Below, one piece after another: positions 53,508 to 64,000 of a stretch of 64,000 bases of DNA. The notes beneath the pieces are model-generated. The model had not been told where the DNA came from and searched no databases. It worked only from the letters and a program-made list of their open reading frames with translations. Every line of letters begins with the position of its first letter. The stretch's first letter is position 1. The DNA is from Cylindrotheca closterium (lineage: Eukaryota; Bacillariophyta; Bacillariophyceae; Bacillariales; Bacillariaceae). The stretch spans positions 651,887-715,886 of the forward strand of contig CAKOGP040001112.1 of the NCBI GenBank assembly GCA_933822405.4. The letters run 5' to 3'. The translations under genes were made by a program, and so were the position numbers.

Positions 53508-55586
53508 TCAATGAGGTTCATCTTGAAATCCTACCGGTCCTGAAAACGAAGGTGCATCACGAAGACCAAAGCGTGCGGAAGTACTATCTTCGATGGGAGT
53601 GTATGATAGGATTCGTTTCCCACACAAGCTGCCAGTCACCAAGACATAGGCGGCGATGGCTCCAACGATAGCTCCCAAGAGAATGAGCGAAAAGAACATC
53701 ATTATCCCCCTTTTGGTATTGACCACAGCAACTGAACTCATATAACCAGCTTTTTGCTTCGCTCCCGAAGTGCAATCAGTCGCACGGGTAGCGAATGGTT
53801 GGATAATTTGCATTAATGTCTGAAGGTCACAAAGTTCAAGATCGGCATGACAGCCAGGCACTTGCCCAGTCAAGACCTTTCCATTGTAAATCATTCGAAA
53901 GGCGTAGCGAGATTCGAACAGGGTTGTATTCCAAGAGTCAATAAATTCATGGATCTAAAACATGGCGCGCTTTTTGGTCAGCCGTGTCATATATGATAGC
54001 AACAAAAGCAATACCAGGAGAACCGCCCTTACCTCGAACAACAGCATACTTGCATAAGGCGCCCACTCAGTATCGTTCCATAGATCTGGGCTAATGGACG
54101 CGAGAAGGGGCATGATCGTGGTATCATGACCTGAATACAACGCTAATCTTGGTGGAACGGTTCCGTCTTCGCCAGATGGATTCTTTCCACGCTTGTCACG
54201 CCTCAAGAAGAGTTCCCAAATATCTTTCATTTCAGCCCACAATGGACCCATTGCGAGCCTTGAGTGTTCTTTTTAAAATAAAACAAAACAAATGGATGAG
54301 CATTAGGATAAAAGTATCCCATTTCTGTCACTCACACCAAACGTACCTGAATTATTGTATTTCATCACCCTGTTGTACTCCTCAATGTCCAAAGCTCCGA
54401 TCCTCTCAAACCAGCTATCTGGCTTCCCATAATCATTAATCACATCGGGTAGGTCTCGATCATTGCACATGGTAATCATGAGACAGTCCAGTATCTTGTT
54501 ATCGTCCATTCTACCAAGGGTGTTGTCGAGGAAATAATTGACTTCCAACGATTCCTTCGAGTTATTGAAGGTTTGATACTCGTCTGATTGCCTCGCTCGG
54601 TTGGCAATCTCATCAAGCCTTGGACAGACCTTGGCACTTGGCCCCATGATGTCACGTTCTCGATCGGCTATGTGTAGTGGAATCGTAGGGTACTCTCCCG
54701 TGTCACGAAAGTACGCCTCTGCTTCGTTTTCCAGCAGACCTCTCAACAACACTTGCCCCGACATGATTGTGCGCTGATCCGCATCCGCTCGAAATCGCAA
54801 ATGGTTCGGATCCCATGCAGAAAACTCGTGGAACGAAAGTTCAATTAGTCTCATTCTCTCATCATGATCCATAGTGTCGTATGTGTAGGTGTACGCATCT
54901 CGGAGAATCGCCCCATTCTTCAACTCCTGTTCGTATCCCTTTAGAAGTAGTTGTCCAACCTGACAAGTCCCATTGAGCTCGTTGCTCAGTCCGTCCTTCA
55001 AGTATGGCAAGGCATCGTAAAACTTTTCAAACAAGAAAAAGGAATTGTCCAGTCCTTTCGAATCATCGCCAAGCCCTTCTTCCTCACCAATAGTTAAGGA
55101 ACTTGGTGGTGTCATGATCGTCGTCAGTTTGCAATTCCATTCTGTGTCAGTGATATCAACAGGAAATTTCTGTGATGAGCACCATGACAAAAAAGGCGAG
55201 AGATGAGTATACACTATAACAATCCTTGACACTAATAGTAGATGATCCAACAACCGAGACGAAAAACTTACAGGAAAACAATTTTCATTGCTGGACCAAG
55301 GCGTCCTCGCCCCATGACGAATGATGGCGCTCACATGCTGAATTCTGGTTTCCCCATACACACTTCGACTGACTTCTGGCAAGGGAGGTACTGCCCGGGT
55401 TTCCATTTCTTTGGGAATCGAGCAATAGGGAGGATAGTGTTCGTATTTCTTGTACCAATTTTCGGGTCTCTGATTGTCATCGTTGGCGGCCAAAACAAAG
55501 GAGTCGCAATGCCATTGGACTACTGTTCCCCACAACACAAAGTATTGCAGAGTCTTCAACCCCCCACTATATCTCGTTTGTCCCAT
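53508..55586 (-). CDS. histidine acid phosphatase, membrane-anchored, catalytically intact copy
   Basis: Four exons: 55586-55272, 55169-54347, 54268-54033 and 53954-53508, giving 606 aa. An N-terminal hydrophobic stretch (FVLWGTVVQWHCDSFVLAA) acts as signal. The branch-2 histidine phosphatase motif is R90-H91-G-A-R-T-P, with H91 the expected phosphohistidine nucleophile, and the distal HD acid is present in YSGHDTTIMPLL. A C-terminal membrane segment (SLILLGAIVGAIAAYVLVTG) precedes a short cytosolic tail. The family includes lysosomal-type acid phosphatases, phytases and PXYLP1/ACPL2-like enzymes; substrate is open. It is head-to-head with a paralogue, 214 bp between starts. Confidence 0.87.
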
Positions 55587-55800
55587 CGCCACCGCCTTGA
55601 TTTGGATTTGTTTGTTTCCGATGTCTCTTTTGGAGTCCCGAGATAGCGTCAGTCGTGGCGCACCCACCAAAAAGACTGCTGAACACGATTGCTTCGATCC
55701 TCCTCCTCCAACAAAATAACCTTGCGGAATGTTGTCTCGATTCTTCTCAATGAATTCAGTGTCCGATACAGCACTGCAAAAGGGAAGAATAAGGTGGAAG
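55587..55800. promoter_or_regulatory. putative bidirectional promoter of the acid phosphatase pair
   Basis: 214 bp separate the two ATGs (72 fewer if the upstream ATG at 55729 is used for the plus-strand gene). Divergent paralogues with such a short shared spacer are likely to be co-regulated. Confidence 0.5.
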
Positions 55801-57876
55801 ATGGCAGCATACCAGTTCTTGACTCTGATCTTGCTGATACAAGGGTCTTTGGCATCAGAGAATATGGACGATCATCAGCGTTCTTGGTATCAAAGATACG
55901 CCGATTATCCACCATATTGCTCGACACCAGAACAGATGACCCAACGTTATATTCCAAAACTTTACATTCCCAATGGTACTAATTTCGGGGTTACCAGGCT
56001 TTCCCATGTGACTACGGTCCTGAATCACGGAGCTAGAACGACACTAGGTCCGGAAACAAATGGTCGGTGTTGGGACGGATACTGGGAGGATGAGGACACG
56101 GGAGTGTGGAATTGCGACATTAGAACTTATCTATCACCTCCTAGTGAGAAAAGGATCGAGGAAGAAGAGGACGAAGTTGCTCGTGGAGGAATACCTGTTT
56201 CCCGTGGAGGAACACCCATGTTTTTGTTCGATCTTGTATTCGATGCCTTGAAGCCACCGTTGTCGAACACACTGAATGGGACTTGTCAAGAGGGACAACT
56301 GCTCTTGCGAGGGTATGATCAGCAACTAGAAAATGGGAAAATACTGCGAAGTGCTTATTTGTTCGACCCTAAATCGGAGGAATCAGGCAGATCTGATTCA
56401 AATCCTCATGAAACAATGACATTGTTTTCTCTTGAGGGACATGCTGACGGTGAAACTGTGTCACCGCCATGGGACCCGCATTACCTTTATGTACGCTCTG
56501 GTGATAGCCAAGCGACCATGATGTCAGGCCAGATTCTCATGCGAGGATTGTTCGAACATGAGCTGGAAGATCATGGCGAAAGAGAAGAGTTTGGATTGGG
56601 GTCATTCCCTTCAATCCGAGTCCACACTGCAGACAACACGATGGATATTCTTGGGGGCTTTCAAAAGAATTGTCCGAAGCTCGATGGATTAAGACGAGAG
56701 AGTTTCTCTGCCAAGGAGTATAAGGAATTCTACGACAGCATAGAGTCACAGCAGGTTCGAGCTTTCATGGCTGACCAACTGAGTTACGGTCATGGCTTGT
56801 TCGATTGTATGATGACTACCATTTGCACGGATCGAAAACTTCCAGAACAGTTCGGAGACTACGAAGTGGATAAGAACACTTGGTTCAACCGGATTGCTAC
56901 CTACGTAAGAATGTCGCGTTGACGTCGAATGACCCTGGTCGCTTCTTGTCGCTGATACCTTTTTATGTTCCGTTATGCAGCACACAAGAAATCATACGTT
57001 CCCTCTTCGTTACAATGACGCTCAATTTTCCAAGCTAAGCATTGGGCCATTGTGGGCGGAAATTTTGGACCATATTGAGCCATCGATCGCTGGTAAAAAT
57101 GCAACAAGAAGTGGAAGGCACCCACCGGCAAAGCTTGCGATTTATTCAGGATATGACAGGTAAATCCAAAAATGTATCCCAAAAGAGTAATTTTGTTTGT
57201 GATGCTTATGTCGACCTTTGTTCAAACTTTCAATGCAGTACAATTATGGAACTTCTGGCTTCGCTAGGAGAAAACGTGTGGGACGGATTAGTGTGGCCCC
57301 CATACGCAAGTATGCTGATAGTGGAGGTAAGCAACATTGTCTTTCCGTTTTTCATTCAGACTACGATTCGAACTGGATTCTTACGGCCATCTTTAGATCC
57401 ACGAGTTGCTTGATGAAAATCGCAATAAAACGTTGGTTGAAAGCAACTCAGCATTTCGATTGATCTATAATGGGGATGTGTTGACTGATAGGGTACCTGG
57501 GTGTCAATTGGACTTGGAGCTCTGTGATATCAAGTTTCTCATGGAGCGAGTGGACCCAATCGCAGTGCGAAAAGTAGACTGTGACGACCCGACCGTACGC
57601 TCTGCCAACACTGTACGGATCGAGAAATCGGTCCTATCAACGACATGGGGCATACTATCTGCCATTCTAGCGATAGCCACAGGAGCGTTCGCTGGGGCAA
57701 CGATTGTCATTTACAAACTAACAGGAAGTCTACCAGACAAACTGAAGAAGAATAAAAATTTCCGATCCAGGAACGCATTTCAACATTCAGGAGTGTCGCA
57801 CCAGATTGCGATGGAAGGTCCTGCCGATGCCAGCCCTGCATTCATGGATCCTCACGACGACCCAGGCCTAACCTAA
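55801..57876 (+). CDS. histidine acid phosphatase paralogue with altered catalytic motifs (probable pseudoenzyme)
   Basis: Four exons: 55801-56904, 56981-57159, 57239-57326 and 57397-57876, giving 616 aa. The ATG at 55801 starts a signal peptide (YQFLTLILLIQGSLAS); an ATG at 55729 is alternative. It matches the minus-strand neighbour throughout, including YPPYCSTPEQM, GTCQEGQLLLRGYDQQL, IGPLWAE and DRVPGC. The RHGARTP motif is N75-H76-G-A-R-T-T: the nucleophile His remains but the first Arg and the Pro are changed. The distal YSGHD is YSGYD, losing the catalytic-motif His. A C-terminal membrane segment is kept. The open frame and domain are intact, so this is a divergent protein, not a dead gene. 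Confidence 0.85.
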
Positions 57877-58001: not shown

Positions 58002-61000
58002 ATGTGGCAATCACGAGATGTAGCTCGAGAGGTGCCCTCAGATGTGGAATCATCTTTCAGTGTGTCTTCAACGTTTCGACACACCGGAAACTATAATCCA
58101 CCTCAACATCCCCATCCCAGACATGCCAAAGATGCGGAGCACAAACCTAAGACACACGGGTTATTCGGCGTCATGGTCGTTGGATTAGGTGGTGCTAATG
58201 GGACAACAATGCTGGGTAGGTAGAAATGAAAATTTGGTAGTTTGGTATGTTTCAGTGAATCATCAACATCTAACTCGTCTCGTCTGCATTTTATTGCCCA
58301 TAGCTGGGATATTGGCAAATCGATTGAAGATTGATTGGAGGGGACCAAGAGGAGAGCCAATGGGCCCGAATTACAACGGATGTATCACACAACTCGACCA
58401 ACGTGGTGTCCATGGTGGTGTTGGATACAGAGACCTTGTCACTGGATTGGCGGATGCGTCGATGGCTGCCGTAGGAGGGTGGGATATCCGACCTACAAAA
58501 CCGGGCGATGCTCTCTTGGAAGCACAGATTTTGGACTATGATTTGGTCAGACAAGTGAGAGATGAAATGAACGAAGTTAAAATGTTTAGAGGTCTCTTTG
58601 ATCCTCGCTTCATTGGAACATCCCAACATAACACGGCAAACTACATTTTGACAGAACAAGAAGCGAGAAGCGATAGCGATGCGTTAAAATGCTTAAGAGC
58701 TGATATCCGTTACTTCAAATGGAAGAATGGGGTAGTTGGTCACACAACAGTCATTTGGAGTGCTTCTGTCGAACCGAATTCAGAGGTAGTTGAGAGCATC
58801 CAAACTGCAGAGGAATTGATGATGTGCATTGATATGACAGAAGAAGAGCGAGGCGGTCCACTTCCACCTTCTATCTTGTATGCCACGGCAGCAGTGTTGG
58901 AAGGGTGCTCATTTGTGAATGGGGGCAGTCAAAATACTCTTGCTTGCCCTGGTTTAGCAGAACTCGCTCAACAACAACTTGGTGTGTACTGTCTCGGCAC
59001 CGACTTCAAAGCTGGTCAAACAAAATTCAAAACTGCAGCAGTCGAGTACATTCGAACAATGGGATTGGAACCAAGGGTTATTGCATCATCAAATCATTTG
59101 GGTAATAACGATATGCGAAATTTGGCGTCTGCAAAAGCAGCGAGTACCGCAAAGCTTAAGGTAAAGCATGATATCTTCGCGCCTTGGGAAGAAGAAGACT
59201 TGGACCACAAGGTCAGCATCATGTTCACTCCGTTTATCAACGACGAAAAGAGAGATTTTGTTGAGTACACTAGTTTGGGTTTCCTGGGACAGCCGCATAC
59301 TATGGTGACATACACAAGGGCATCAGATTCCGTTCTTTGTGTGCCCTTGATGATTGACGCAGCTGTCTGGTGTGATTTTTTCTCTGCTCGTTCATGGTCT
59401 TTCGAACGAGTTGCCAAGGCTTTGGCCTACCTGTTCAAGGTTCCTGAAGGAGCCGCGAATGGTGTCGACCCTGGTTTCTTCAGACAAATGGATGTGCTGA
59501 GATCTGAAGTATTAGCAGCGCATGAATCGAAAAAGAAAAGTAAACGACGAGTTCGCATCATTGACGAAGAAAAGGCTACAGAATGGGCAATTCCTCATGA
59601 TGCGAGAGTAATATGTGCTGGTCTAGCTTGCGTCGACATGCAACTTAACAACTCAACAGGTGGTGATGGCGGCGAAGCGATCGAGACTTTTGAAGGGGAA
59701 AAGAGTATCGGTGGAGGAAGGTGGGTCACACTGCTACGATCAATATATTGTTCACCATATCTCACTCATTAGGATATTTCATACATAGCGTTTCAATGGC
59801 TTGTAAAACTCTTGGTCGCCTATGCCATGGGGAGCCAATGGACAGTGGTCATATGCAAACAAGCCCACCAGTTGTCACTTCAGTCTTACCACTATGTATG
59901 ATCGGGAACGACGACACCGGCAACAAGCTGCTTGCGCTCTTAGAGAAATGTGGAGCGACATGCCGAAATGTCGACACGAGAGTTTCCCGAACCATCCGCT
60001 CGGACAGATCAGACATCCGTACAGCCCTTTCTGTTTTGCCTATTTACAGGGATGGACGTCGAGGGGTGAGTCTCCTTTCAGTTCATTGCAGTGCATATCA
60101 TTTATTTTCAGATCTCCAGAAGCTAACAATTTGTATCTTTCAAGTGCTTTTTCGACGCAGCGAGCAACGACACGTTCACACCGGATCAATTAATCAAAAT
60201 GTTGTCGCAGCTCTCGACAGGCACGAATGTGCGGACTCTCCAAGACACCACTCCTGTCTATGGAGCGCTTTTATTTGGATACCCACACTTGCTCCCCCTT
60301 CTTCAAGGAGAAGCCCTTGCTCGGGTATTTTATTCGTCTAGAAAAGTGATGATGGAAGGTGGAATTGTGGCCCTCGACTTAAACGGTGTTCCAGAAGCTC
60401 CTTTTGTCAGAGCAGGATCATTGCGCGATGTCGAAGATCTTCGAAATGATGCAGTAATAGGTGCTGCACTTCAGCATGTCGATATTCTTCACATGAATGA
60501 AGAAGAGTTGGAAATGTTGACTGGTTGTGAGCTCTCAAATACAGCCGATTTGGCACAGGATGATGAATTTGCTATTGCGAAAGCAACCGACCTTTTCTTG
60601 AAATGCGGCGTTGCTGTTGTAGCAGTAACAAGAGGAAAGAAGGGTAGCTACGTTGCCTGCAACAACGGGACAAGATTCCAGGAAAGTCCATTGCTGTAAG
60701 TATTCATTTGATTCTCTGTGGTGTCATGTTATGCTAGAGATGCATTCTCACGATTTCCCACTGCCCAAACCAGTCCAACATCATGGGTGAACTGTGCGGC
60801 CCACATTCCTGCAGCTCTATTGCCTCCAGGCACTGTGCTGAATACCAATGGAGCAGGCGATTCTTTTGTGTCAGGACTACTAGTCGCAACCATGCTTCGA
60901 CATACAGGAATGGATCTACCACCAACTCCAACCAAAAAGGAAGAGGTCAGTAGAGTCACGGAGGAACTTATTACCCCTCCAAGGACTACACCCCCTGGTA

Positions 61001-61437
61001 AAAAGGCAACTCCGTACAGCCTCTACATTAGAGAGAACTATATGTCTCTGAAGCAACAATACCACGATGACAAAAAGGCCATCTTCGAGAGATGCCATCA
61101 AATGTGGGAACATGAAACGCCCGATGTGAAGTACATGTTTGAACGTATGGCTCGAGAGGAGAATGAAGAACCCTCGGCAAATGTAAATGCTCTGGATATG
61201 ATGAGTGATGTCGGTACTATGCCACCCCAGATGGGCGATTCCCAGAACGATACAATCGCACGTCATTATTCGACTGACGAATCCCTCAGCCTCGAATCAG
61301 CAGTCACTCTTGCGAGTCTAGTTGCTGCGCACCATGTGGATATGAGTACAAGGGACCTTCCACAGCTCGATATACACAAATTGATTGAAAAGGCATCTGT
61401 TTTTTCTCATCCAGGCCGAGGGATGAGCGAAATCTAG
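58002..61437 (+). CDS. inositol-3-phosphate synthase (MIPS) fused to a PfkB kinase with an HMG-box-like insertion
   Basis: Five exons: 58002-58215, 58304-59720, 59789-60065, 60145-60695 and 60738-61437, giving 1052 aa. Residues ~55-480 are a full MIPS: NAD-binding GLGGANGTT (61-69), then [46 protein letters not shown] and [17 protein letters not shown] turns glucose-6-phosphate into Ins(3)P. From ~505 a PfkB sugar-kinase fold begins in the same exon ([15 protein letters not shown]) and continues through [28 protein letters not shown] and [12 protein letters not shown] with catalytic D861. A ~60-residue HMG-box-like stretch ([16 protein letters not shown] ... [18 protein letters not shown], ~905-965) sits inside the kinase before its last helices. 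Intron 4 is only 42 bp. Confidence 0.9.
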
Positions 61438-61922: not shown

Positions 61923-64000
61923 ATGGCAACAAAAGGTGAAGTACAACGAAAGACTTCTAACGTCGAAAAGGGGAAGTGTGTGGATGGTACGGGACGCGAC
62001 GGAAGCCGCCAATGGGTCTGTTGACGTCATTTTGTAGAATCACCACTGACGTTTTGTATTCTGTCATCATCGCGTATCATTATCAAAGGTAACTGGGCTG
62101 CGGCACATGTATCCTACCGCACCAATGATTCCGCATTCATCTTCCCTATTACCCCAAGCTCTCCAATGGGAGAAGAGGTGGATGCTTGGGCTGAACAACA
62201 TAAAAAGAACTTGTGGGGACAGGAATTGAAAGTCGTCGAGATGCAGGTAAATTTTTGCACGACTGCTGTCGTTCATTATGCATGTTAAAAGGATTCTAAC
62301 CTATTTTGTTATTTTTGCTGTAGAGTGAAGGTGGAGCTGCAGGTGCTCTACATGGCGCCTTGGTCTCTGGCGCTTTGGCAACTACCTATACGGCCAGTCA
62401 AGGATTACTTTTATTTATTCCGAATATGTACAAGATCGCTGGTGAGCTGCTGCCTACAGTAATACACGTGGCCTCTCGTGCTCTTGCTGGGCAGGGTCTA
62501 TCAATCTATGGTGATCATAGTGATACCATGTTGGTGCGCGGTTGTGGTTGGTCGATGATGAGTTCCTTCTCGGTCCAAGATGCCCACGACATGGCTGCAA
62601 TTTGCCAAGTCGCTACTCTGAACTCTCGAGTGCCATTTCTGGTAAGTTCTACATTCGTAGAAGAAATGTTGAGTGCTTACCATTGGCATCTATCTAATCT
62701 AATCCAATCCATTATTTCTTTTTTTCAGCACTTTTTTGATGGCTTCAGAACAAGTCATGAGGTCAACAAGATTCAGCTGATTTCTGACGAGCAACTTTTG
62801 GAATTGATGCCGTTTGACAAGATTGAGGAGCATCGTCAGCGCGCTCTATCTCCGATGCACCCAAGGTTAGTAGCATACTTCGGCACGTTTTTTCAACCTG
62901 TTGGGTCTCACCGTTTTCTTCACAAACCACAGTCAAAGGGGAACAGCACAAGCACCCGATGTATTCATGCAAATGGTGGAAAGCAGTAATCAGTACTACG
63001 CTGATGTTGAGGGTCACATTGTGAAAGCAATGGGTGATTTTCACCGTGTAACGGGTCGAAAGTACGAACCAATCGAGTACCGATACTATGGTACAACTGC
63101 ACCAAGAGTCGCTCTGATTTGCATGGGTTCTGGTGTAGCTGTTATTGACAGTACCTTGAAGCACCTGAAGAGCGAATCTGCTTGCTTGATTGGCATTCGA
63201 ATGTTCCGTCCTTGGAACAGAAAACGATTCTGCGATTTGATACCCAAGTCGGTCACGAGACTTGCTATTCTTGATCGTACTCGAGAGGGTGGTGCGCAGG
63301 GTGAGCCCTTGTATCTCGATGTTTGCACCTCCTTGATGCAAGAGGGCAGAGGCAGCATCTTTGTAGCAGGAGGACGATACGGATTAGGATCAAAGGACTT
63401 CACTCCGCGAATGGTTTCCTCCATCATCCAGAACATGTTGCGCAAGGATACCAATGACGTCCAGCGACCATTCACAGTTGGAATCACTGATGATGTGACA
63501 AATTTATCACTTCCTCTCGGAAGATCATTGAATGTGCTTGATCCGAGTGTCACTCAATGTGTGTTCTGGGGATTTGGCAGGTACGTTGCCCTTTTCTCCA
63601 ACTCGATTCGTTTTCGTATTACCTCAACTCCATTTTCCTTTCAGTGATGGAACTGTCGGTGCAAACAAGGAGGCTGTCAAAATGATTGGAAACTATCATG
63701 AGGATATGGAAGTCCAAGCATACTTTGAATACGATTCCAAAAAAAGTAGTGGATGGACCACTTCCCACCTTCGTTTCTCTTCCGATGTTTCCATTCAAGC
63801 TCCATGGCGAGTTGAGGAAAATGCTGCGGACTATGTCGCCTGCCATAATGAGTCCTATGTCCAAGCGAACAAGTTCGATGTTATCAAGTATCTCAAACGA
63901 AGAGGTAATTTTTTCCTCAACACGACAGCCGCTGCAATTGATGATCCAGAGAAGAGACTTGAAGCACTGGAGCATCTGGTATCACCCAAGATCCTTCGCA
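61923..64000 (+). CDS. pyruvate:ferredoxin (or NADP+) oxidoreductase, N-terminal part, cut by window end
   Basis: Exons 61923-61986, 62089-62246, 62324-62641, 62729-62865, 62933-63580 and 63645 to the window end. The start gives MATKGEVQRK, with no obvious presequence. Domain I is clear: VDGNWAAAHVSYRTND and FIFPITPSSPMGEEVDAWA, then EGGAAGALHGALVSGALATT, SRALAGQGLSIYGDHSD and RGTAQAPDVFMQMVESSN. Later blocks GTTAPRVALICMGSG, RMFRPWN and ILDRTREGGAQGEPLY match domains I-II. The enzyme decarboxylates pyruvate oxidatively to acetyl-CoA with thiamine diphosphate and iron-sulfur clusters, which are encoded beyond the window. Whether it ends as plain PFOR or as the PNO fusion with a reductase cannot be seen. 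Confidence 0.92.

Follow-up and report, generated by a model that had tools for sequence, protein, structure and literature searches.

Does a single diatom protein unite an inositol-3-phosphate synthase (MIPS) with a kinase of the PfkB family, and what would such a chain do? This question is raised by a gene at 58002..61437 on the forward strand of the window, i.e. the whole 64,000-nucleotide stretch of Cylindrotheca closterium DNA analyzed here (assembly of 47.6 Mb in 572 contigs). Five exons of the same strand (58002-58215, 58304-59720, 59789-60065, 60145-60695, and 60774-61437) join to one open frame of 1040 amino acids (aa). Splice sites were chosen by GTRNGT-like donors and by junctions agreeing with P0001, an MMETSP transcript protein of 1045 aa that is 92% identical over the whole length and shows the same architecture; 27 splice combinations leave the frame open. 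The fusion is independent of this choice because the junction between synthase and kinase lies inside exon 2, which encodes aa 72-544 and covers the last part of the MIPS domain as well as the first part of the kinase (Asp516, GGG at aa 541-543); the claim of the initial annotation that both lie in one uninterrupted exon (58304-59720) is confirmed. The insertion in the kinase does not depend on splicing either, since the NGAGD motif (aa 845-849), the entire insert, and the final kinase helices are all encoded by exon 5. The expectation of a single transcript is supported in a relative, by P0001, not in this strain. The in-frame fusion proposed at the outset is borne out by the 1040-aa frame and by Pfam: a domain search on the spliced protein, as had been suggested, placed NAD_binding_5 (PF07994, 200.5 bits), Inos-1-P_synth (PF01658, 75.1 bits), and PfkB (PF00294, 57.7 bits, cut-off 25.8) above their cut-offs but left the HMG_box of the window copy below. 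The nearest homologs are diatom proteins, and the architecture as such is confirmed as real.

The MIPS domain spans aa 55-475 (58164..59514, +, containing the intron 58216-58303) and is defined by PF07994 and PF01658; the closest solved structures of this half are MIPS enzymes, the best with 206.9 bits. The NAD-binding motif GLGGANG (aa 61-67, 58182..58202, +), given as GLGGANGTT by the initial annotation, is present, and so is NHLGNND (aa 335-341, 59092..59112, +); at the first Gly of the former, 69 of 121 alignment rows have no letter because their N-terminus is incomplete. K355, K359, K387, and K450 (59152..59439, +) are candidate catalytic lysines and putative counterparts of those of yeast MIPS. 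In 113 of 121 rows, lysine stands at each of these positions. In an alignment with the canonical MIPS of this genome (L001), K387 and K450 fall opposite lysines; the spacing of K355 and K359 is right, yet just K355 is matched to a Lys there, and the placement of this pair is ambiguous. No other part of the protein is as conserved as the MIPS domain (77% mean pairwise identity), which, together with the retention of the four lysines, suggests that selection maintains synthase activity in most rows.

In this search, the genome was found to harbor three MIPS genes, the fused one and two without a kinase. The fused MIPS half is about 35% identical to L001 and 61% to the unfused L002. Judged from these sequences, fused MIPS and L002 belong to a separate subfamily, apart from canonical MIPS; L002 (G000:C246:27688-28002, -) is an unfused member of the fused type that exists alongside L001. 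With eukaryotic MIPS/INO1 (PDB 9m53, 1vko, 9f2k, 1jkf), the window protein shares the fold family, the NAD motif, NHLGNND, and candidate lysines (the K355/K359 pair with ambiguous placement), but it differs in its attached kinase and its separate subfamily. Synthase and kinase meet at a basic linker (aa 481-491, 59530..59562, +); a basic cluster occurs in 103 of the 120 rows with a linker, a count that has no chance control.

The main part of the PfkB kinase extends over aa 506-868 (59605..60918, +, PF00294 on the spliced protein; introns 59721-59788, 60066-60144, and 60696-60773 inside), and the last helices of the fold follow at aa 991-1040 (61285..61434, +), as aligned with standalone relatives. 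The motif with the catalytic Asp that the initial annotation had noted in this half was found again, and GG, NxxE, and GAGD are all present. NGAGDS with Asp849 lies at 60847..60864 (+), and this Asp is invariant across the 103 rows that have a letter at its site. D516, N754, and two Gly of GGG are likewise kept in all rows with a letter at the respective position, E757 in 115 of 116. FGYPHLLP and DLNGV are common to the fused kinase and a standalone ochrophyte PfkB subfamily (P0238 to P0346). A search with P0238 yielded 114 proteins, among them standalone relatives without MIPS from diatoms, Fibrocapsa japonica, and Phaeomonas parva as named sources.

Neither NCBIfam nor PDB searches revealed a close relative with a known substrate. 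NCBIfam matches stay far below cut-off, the best weak ones being ribokinase, hexose kinase, and IolC-type. In the PDB, adenosine kinase ranks first for the fused kinases alone (33.1 bits), and 3h49 (YdjH) for a mixed profile with the standalone relatives (75.1 bits; among the best 60 of 84 entries at E <= 0.1). One step with kinase pieces used six of the eight chosen. The nearest solved relatives are generic ribokinases or sugar kinases, not an inositol enzyme. The kinase is best described as a divergent PfkB branch: it has GG, NxxE, and GAGD in common with PfkB/ribokinase sugar kinases such as YdjH (3h49), but sits on a branch of its own and bears an insert of about 120 aa with an HMG-like core. 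With the PfkB myo-inositol kinases MI3K_TK and TM0415 it shares the superfamily; the NCBIfam and PDB searches turned up nothing that links it specifically to inositol kinases. A search with P0242 for a standalone paralog in the own genome returned only the window's own exon (five candidates scored). Bacterial relatives were sought in two scans of 84,980 species genomes, each with only two short motifs; none of the 61 and 75 pattern matches was confirmed, which with queries this short does not amount to absence.

The insert occupies aa 869-990 (60919..61284, +) and is missing in the standalone relatives and in the fused proteins P0341, P0091, and P0097. In an alignment with the standalone relatives, the kinase sequence runs on without a gap at either side of it, which bears out the proposed position of an HMG-like segment after the GAGD helix and ahead of the last kinase helices; since fused proteins without the segment exist, it is properly called an insert. 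The initial annotation had placed the segment at aa 905-965; it is indeed present, but its core, defined by alignment, PF00505 matches, and conservation, is aa 896-950 (61000..61164, +). The window copy scores 14.2 bits for HMG_box on the whole protein, below the cut-off of 25.4, and the 55-aa segment scanned alone is still sub-threshold (18.2 bits, E 0.0034). The assignment is secured by the orthologs, because P0010, P0014, and P0040 pass the cut-off (25.9, 26.3, and 26.4 bits) and all 11 diverse insert segments used (of 12 chosen) match PF00505 at E <= 1, the best at 1.2e-6. A precomputed PF00505 label is present in 23 of the 120 listed homologs. A PDB profile search with the insert gave weak matches (best E 0.0097, HMGB1), but HMG-box proteins, going by their names, make up 24 of the 27 entries listed at E <= 10. 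With HMG boxes (PF00505), the domain has the Y, the W, and the helix pattern in common, and orthologs exceed the Pfam cut-off; it differs in that the window copy is sub-threshold and located within an enzyme domain.

Mean pairwise identity is 64% in the HMG core and 18% and 31% in its flanks (600 random pairs from 98 rows; the first flank was measurable in 305 pairs). The segment is present in 97 of the 102 rows spanning the site. A short loop takes its place in the fused P0091 and P0097, P0069 and P0101 have an insert without recognizable HMG, and in P0083 the HMG segment begins and then breaks off. The metagenomic P0341 joins the end of a MIPS domain to such a kinase without the HMG insert. 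As at least P0091, P0097, P0069, and P0101 have no recognizable copy, the HMG-like domain is dispensable. A source domain would have been at hand, because 55 further HMG-box matches occur in the own genome. Six HMG boxes, four of them equal-scoring, stand at a spacing of 396 bases in one 1175-codon frame at G000:C94:4519-6702 (-; L023-L026), which by its sequence is a tandem HMG-box protein.

Beyond the window, a homolog search restricted to proteins of 572-1820 aa found 181, of which 120 were listed (one homolog step used 71 of these). According to the precomputed Pfam annotation, PfkB occurs together with one or both MIPS models in 113 of the 120 listed homologs (with both in 101), and seven have MIPS models only. 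Ten named diatom sources are among the matches listed: Nitzschia inconspicua, a Bacillariaceae MAG, Seminavis robusta, Epithemia clementina, Mayamaea pseudoterrestris, Psemu1 (presumably Pseudo-nitzschia multiseries), Entomoneis paludosa (taxid 265537), Amphora coffeaeformis, Fistulifera solaris, and Chaetoceros sp. GSL56 (taxid 947934). The check for the same fusion in other diatoms, which had been proposed with the initial annotation, was thus positive. Compared with nine of the ten sources (without the MAG), the window protein is 74-85% identical in MIPS, 60-70% in the main part of the kinase, and 56-67% in the HMG core. That a MIPS-PfkB fusion with an HMG-like insert is conserved among diatoms is the strongest conclusion from these comparisons. 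A clade of all diatom fusions is absent from the best kinase tree, yet it is not rejected (p-AU 0.338). A fusion in Aureococcus anophagefferens is likely: the source annotation labels both MIPS and PfkB models in P0347, while the sister model P0348 gave no PfkB at E <= 0.01 in the scan performed here, and both sequences look scrambled past GYPHLLP.

The initial annotation knew of no described enzyme with this architecture. This agrees with the open-access PMC papers searched, in which no description of a MIPS-PfkB fusion was found, but automatic annotation already names such proteins 'myo-inositol-1-phosphate synthase' or '...synthase/sugar/nucleoside kinase', so the combination is recorded by database annotation though no paper was found. 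The diatom fusions TPI-GAPDH, UGP-PGM, and G6PDH-6PGDH likewise place two metabolic enzymes on one chain, as far as the accessible text of the reports goes (PMC2173943; PMC3527533). Those are known and consecutive; the three pairs that the PMC2173943 passage names do not include MIPS-PfkB, and each of the three metabolic fusions of Phaeodactylum is stated there to join two subsequent reactions.

In eight of 121 rows (P0032, P0039, P0088, P0104, P0106, P0107, P0108, and P0115), at least one of the four lysines is lost, and the same eight are the PfkB-bearing rows without a PF01658 label; in the scan performed here, P0032 had no PF01658 match and P0039 reached 18.5 bits (cut-off 27). All eight keep the kinase residues examined, apart from one row in which Ala replaces the first Gly of GGG, a variable position; P0104 is truncated ahead of NGAGD. 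Seven of the eight possess the HMG segment. In the kinase tree (59 rows with 30 of the 121 fusion rows; unrooted, as the end branches of its two outgroup rows reach length 10), a single clade of seven synthase-dead rows, without the truncated P0104, is rejected (log-likelihood 49.9 lower, p-AU 0.0024), which suggests repeated loss of the synthase. The MIPS tree counts against independent losses: a single branch can set the three dead rows in it apart from all others (support 34/92), and one origin is not rejected. The kinase tree is favored because the dead rows are long in the MIPS tree and decayed columns were kept. Some dead rows are single metagenomic gene models, for which gene-model error is possible; P0032 is a transcriptome protein. 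As synthase residues are lost in 8 of 121 rows, the two activities need not go together, and the combination of a dead synthase with retained kinase motifs argues that channeling alone does not account for the fusion.

Taken with even chances of being right, the preferred reading is a bifunctional diatom enzyme in which MIPS would make Ins3P, the kinase would act on inositol or Ins3P, and the HMG-like domain would position or regulate the enzyme. The synthase half would convert glucose-6-phosphate to Ins3P, and the kinase half is predicted to be an active small-molecule kinase on inositol or, slightly preferred, Ins3P. This preference derives from the three reported Phaeodactylum fusions, each of which joins subsequent reactions according to the available text (PMC2173943). 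Phosphorylation of Ins3P would yield an inositol bisphosphate and thereby commit both carbon and phosphate to the soluble pool of inositol phosphates; the channel from glucose-6-phosphate to inositol polyphosphates suggested by the initial annotation is possible. MIPS forms tetramers, and the MIPS half may double as an assembly scaffold, a role that would account for those variants in which the synthase is dead but the kinase live. As the least supported step, the HMG-like domain most probably binds nucleic acid or another polyanion and may place or regulate the enzyme. By analogy with Arabidopsis MIPS1, a nuclear MIPS precedent that is reported in the accessible text to bind its own promoter (PMC4844270) and to act with ATXR5/6 (PMC4844270, PMC5444476), the insert may attach the enzyme to nucleic acid. 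The conserved fusion offers one testable protein in diatoms, and an HMG-like domain in a metabolic kinase together with repeated synthase-dead variants makes a good case of a fusion enzyme changing its role. A more elaborate version would be a long shot: here the kinase would convert Ins3P to inositol bisphosphate as the first step of a lipid-independent route to inositol polyphosphates, on the same chain as the enzyme that forms Ins3P; the HMG insert would hold the complex on chromatin, so that one diatom protein would couple the supply of inositol phosphates to gene regulation; and synthase-dead copies would set the activity ratio in mixed tetramers.

Other explanations differ chiefly in the substrate of the kinase. 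Rather unlikely, though with precedents among PfkB enzymes, is a myo-inositol kinase for salvage. The accessible parts of the reports describe MI3K of Thermococcus, which forms Ins3P, and TM0415 of Thermotoga, which forms Ins1P (PMC5931981), as well as a plant MIK that can reverse the inositol monophosphatase reaction and matters for phytate (PMC4844270). As the product of MIPS is given there as Ins3P (PMC4844270), an inositol kinase of the Thermococcus kind would converge on the product of the synthase; both halves would then make Ins3P and the protein would be a two-input supply point, not a channel, and only an Ins3P kinase would act consecutively. The acceptor residues of MI3K are stated to be D12, G26, Q136, R140, and D219 (PMC5931981). 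Against this assignment stands the outcome of the NCBIfam and PDB searches, in which no specific similarity to inositol kinases appeared.

A substrate outside inositol metabolism, e.g. another sugar, a sugar acid, or a nucleoside, with MIPS as scaffold or metabolite sensor, is judged unlikely. It would fit the eight rows that lost synthase residues and kept kinase motifs, the rejection of one clade for seven of them in the kinase tree, the standalone relatives without MIPS in diatoms, Fibrocapsa, and Phaeomonas, and the weak best family matches, but it is at odds with the four lysines kept in 113 of 121 rows and the high identity of MIPS. Highly improbable is a gene-model artefact that merged two adjacent genes. 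The introns were chosen by rule among the open splice combinations and no RNA was seen from this strain; however, the MIPS-kinase junction lies within one exon, MMETSP transcriptome proteins such as P0001, P0032, and P0040 are full fusions, and 113 of the 120 listed homologs agree. An artefact of this kind is refuted unless the MMETSP assemblies are chimeric alike in several species.

As to other inositol-phosphate enzymes, the own genome gave matches of IPK2-type (PF03770, 158.8 bits) and IPK1-type (PF06090, 190.8 bits) as well as 14 matches of PF00459; PF05770 (ITPK) had no match in the own genome and none in the controls either. Within the window, two adjacent, divergently placed genes at 54303-55871 (-) and 55720-56922 (+) match the histidine phosphatase superfamily branch 2 with 46.1 and 24.3 bits (cut-off 23.6), a group that includes phytases and MINPP. 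Downstream of the fusion gene, at 62324-62989 (+), lies a POR_N match (153.5 bits) to pyruvate flavodoxin/ferredoxin oxidoreductase, an enzyme linked mostly with anaerobic metabolism.
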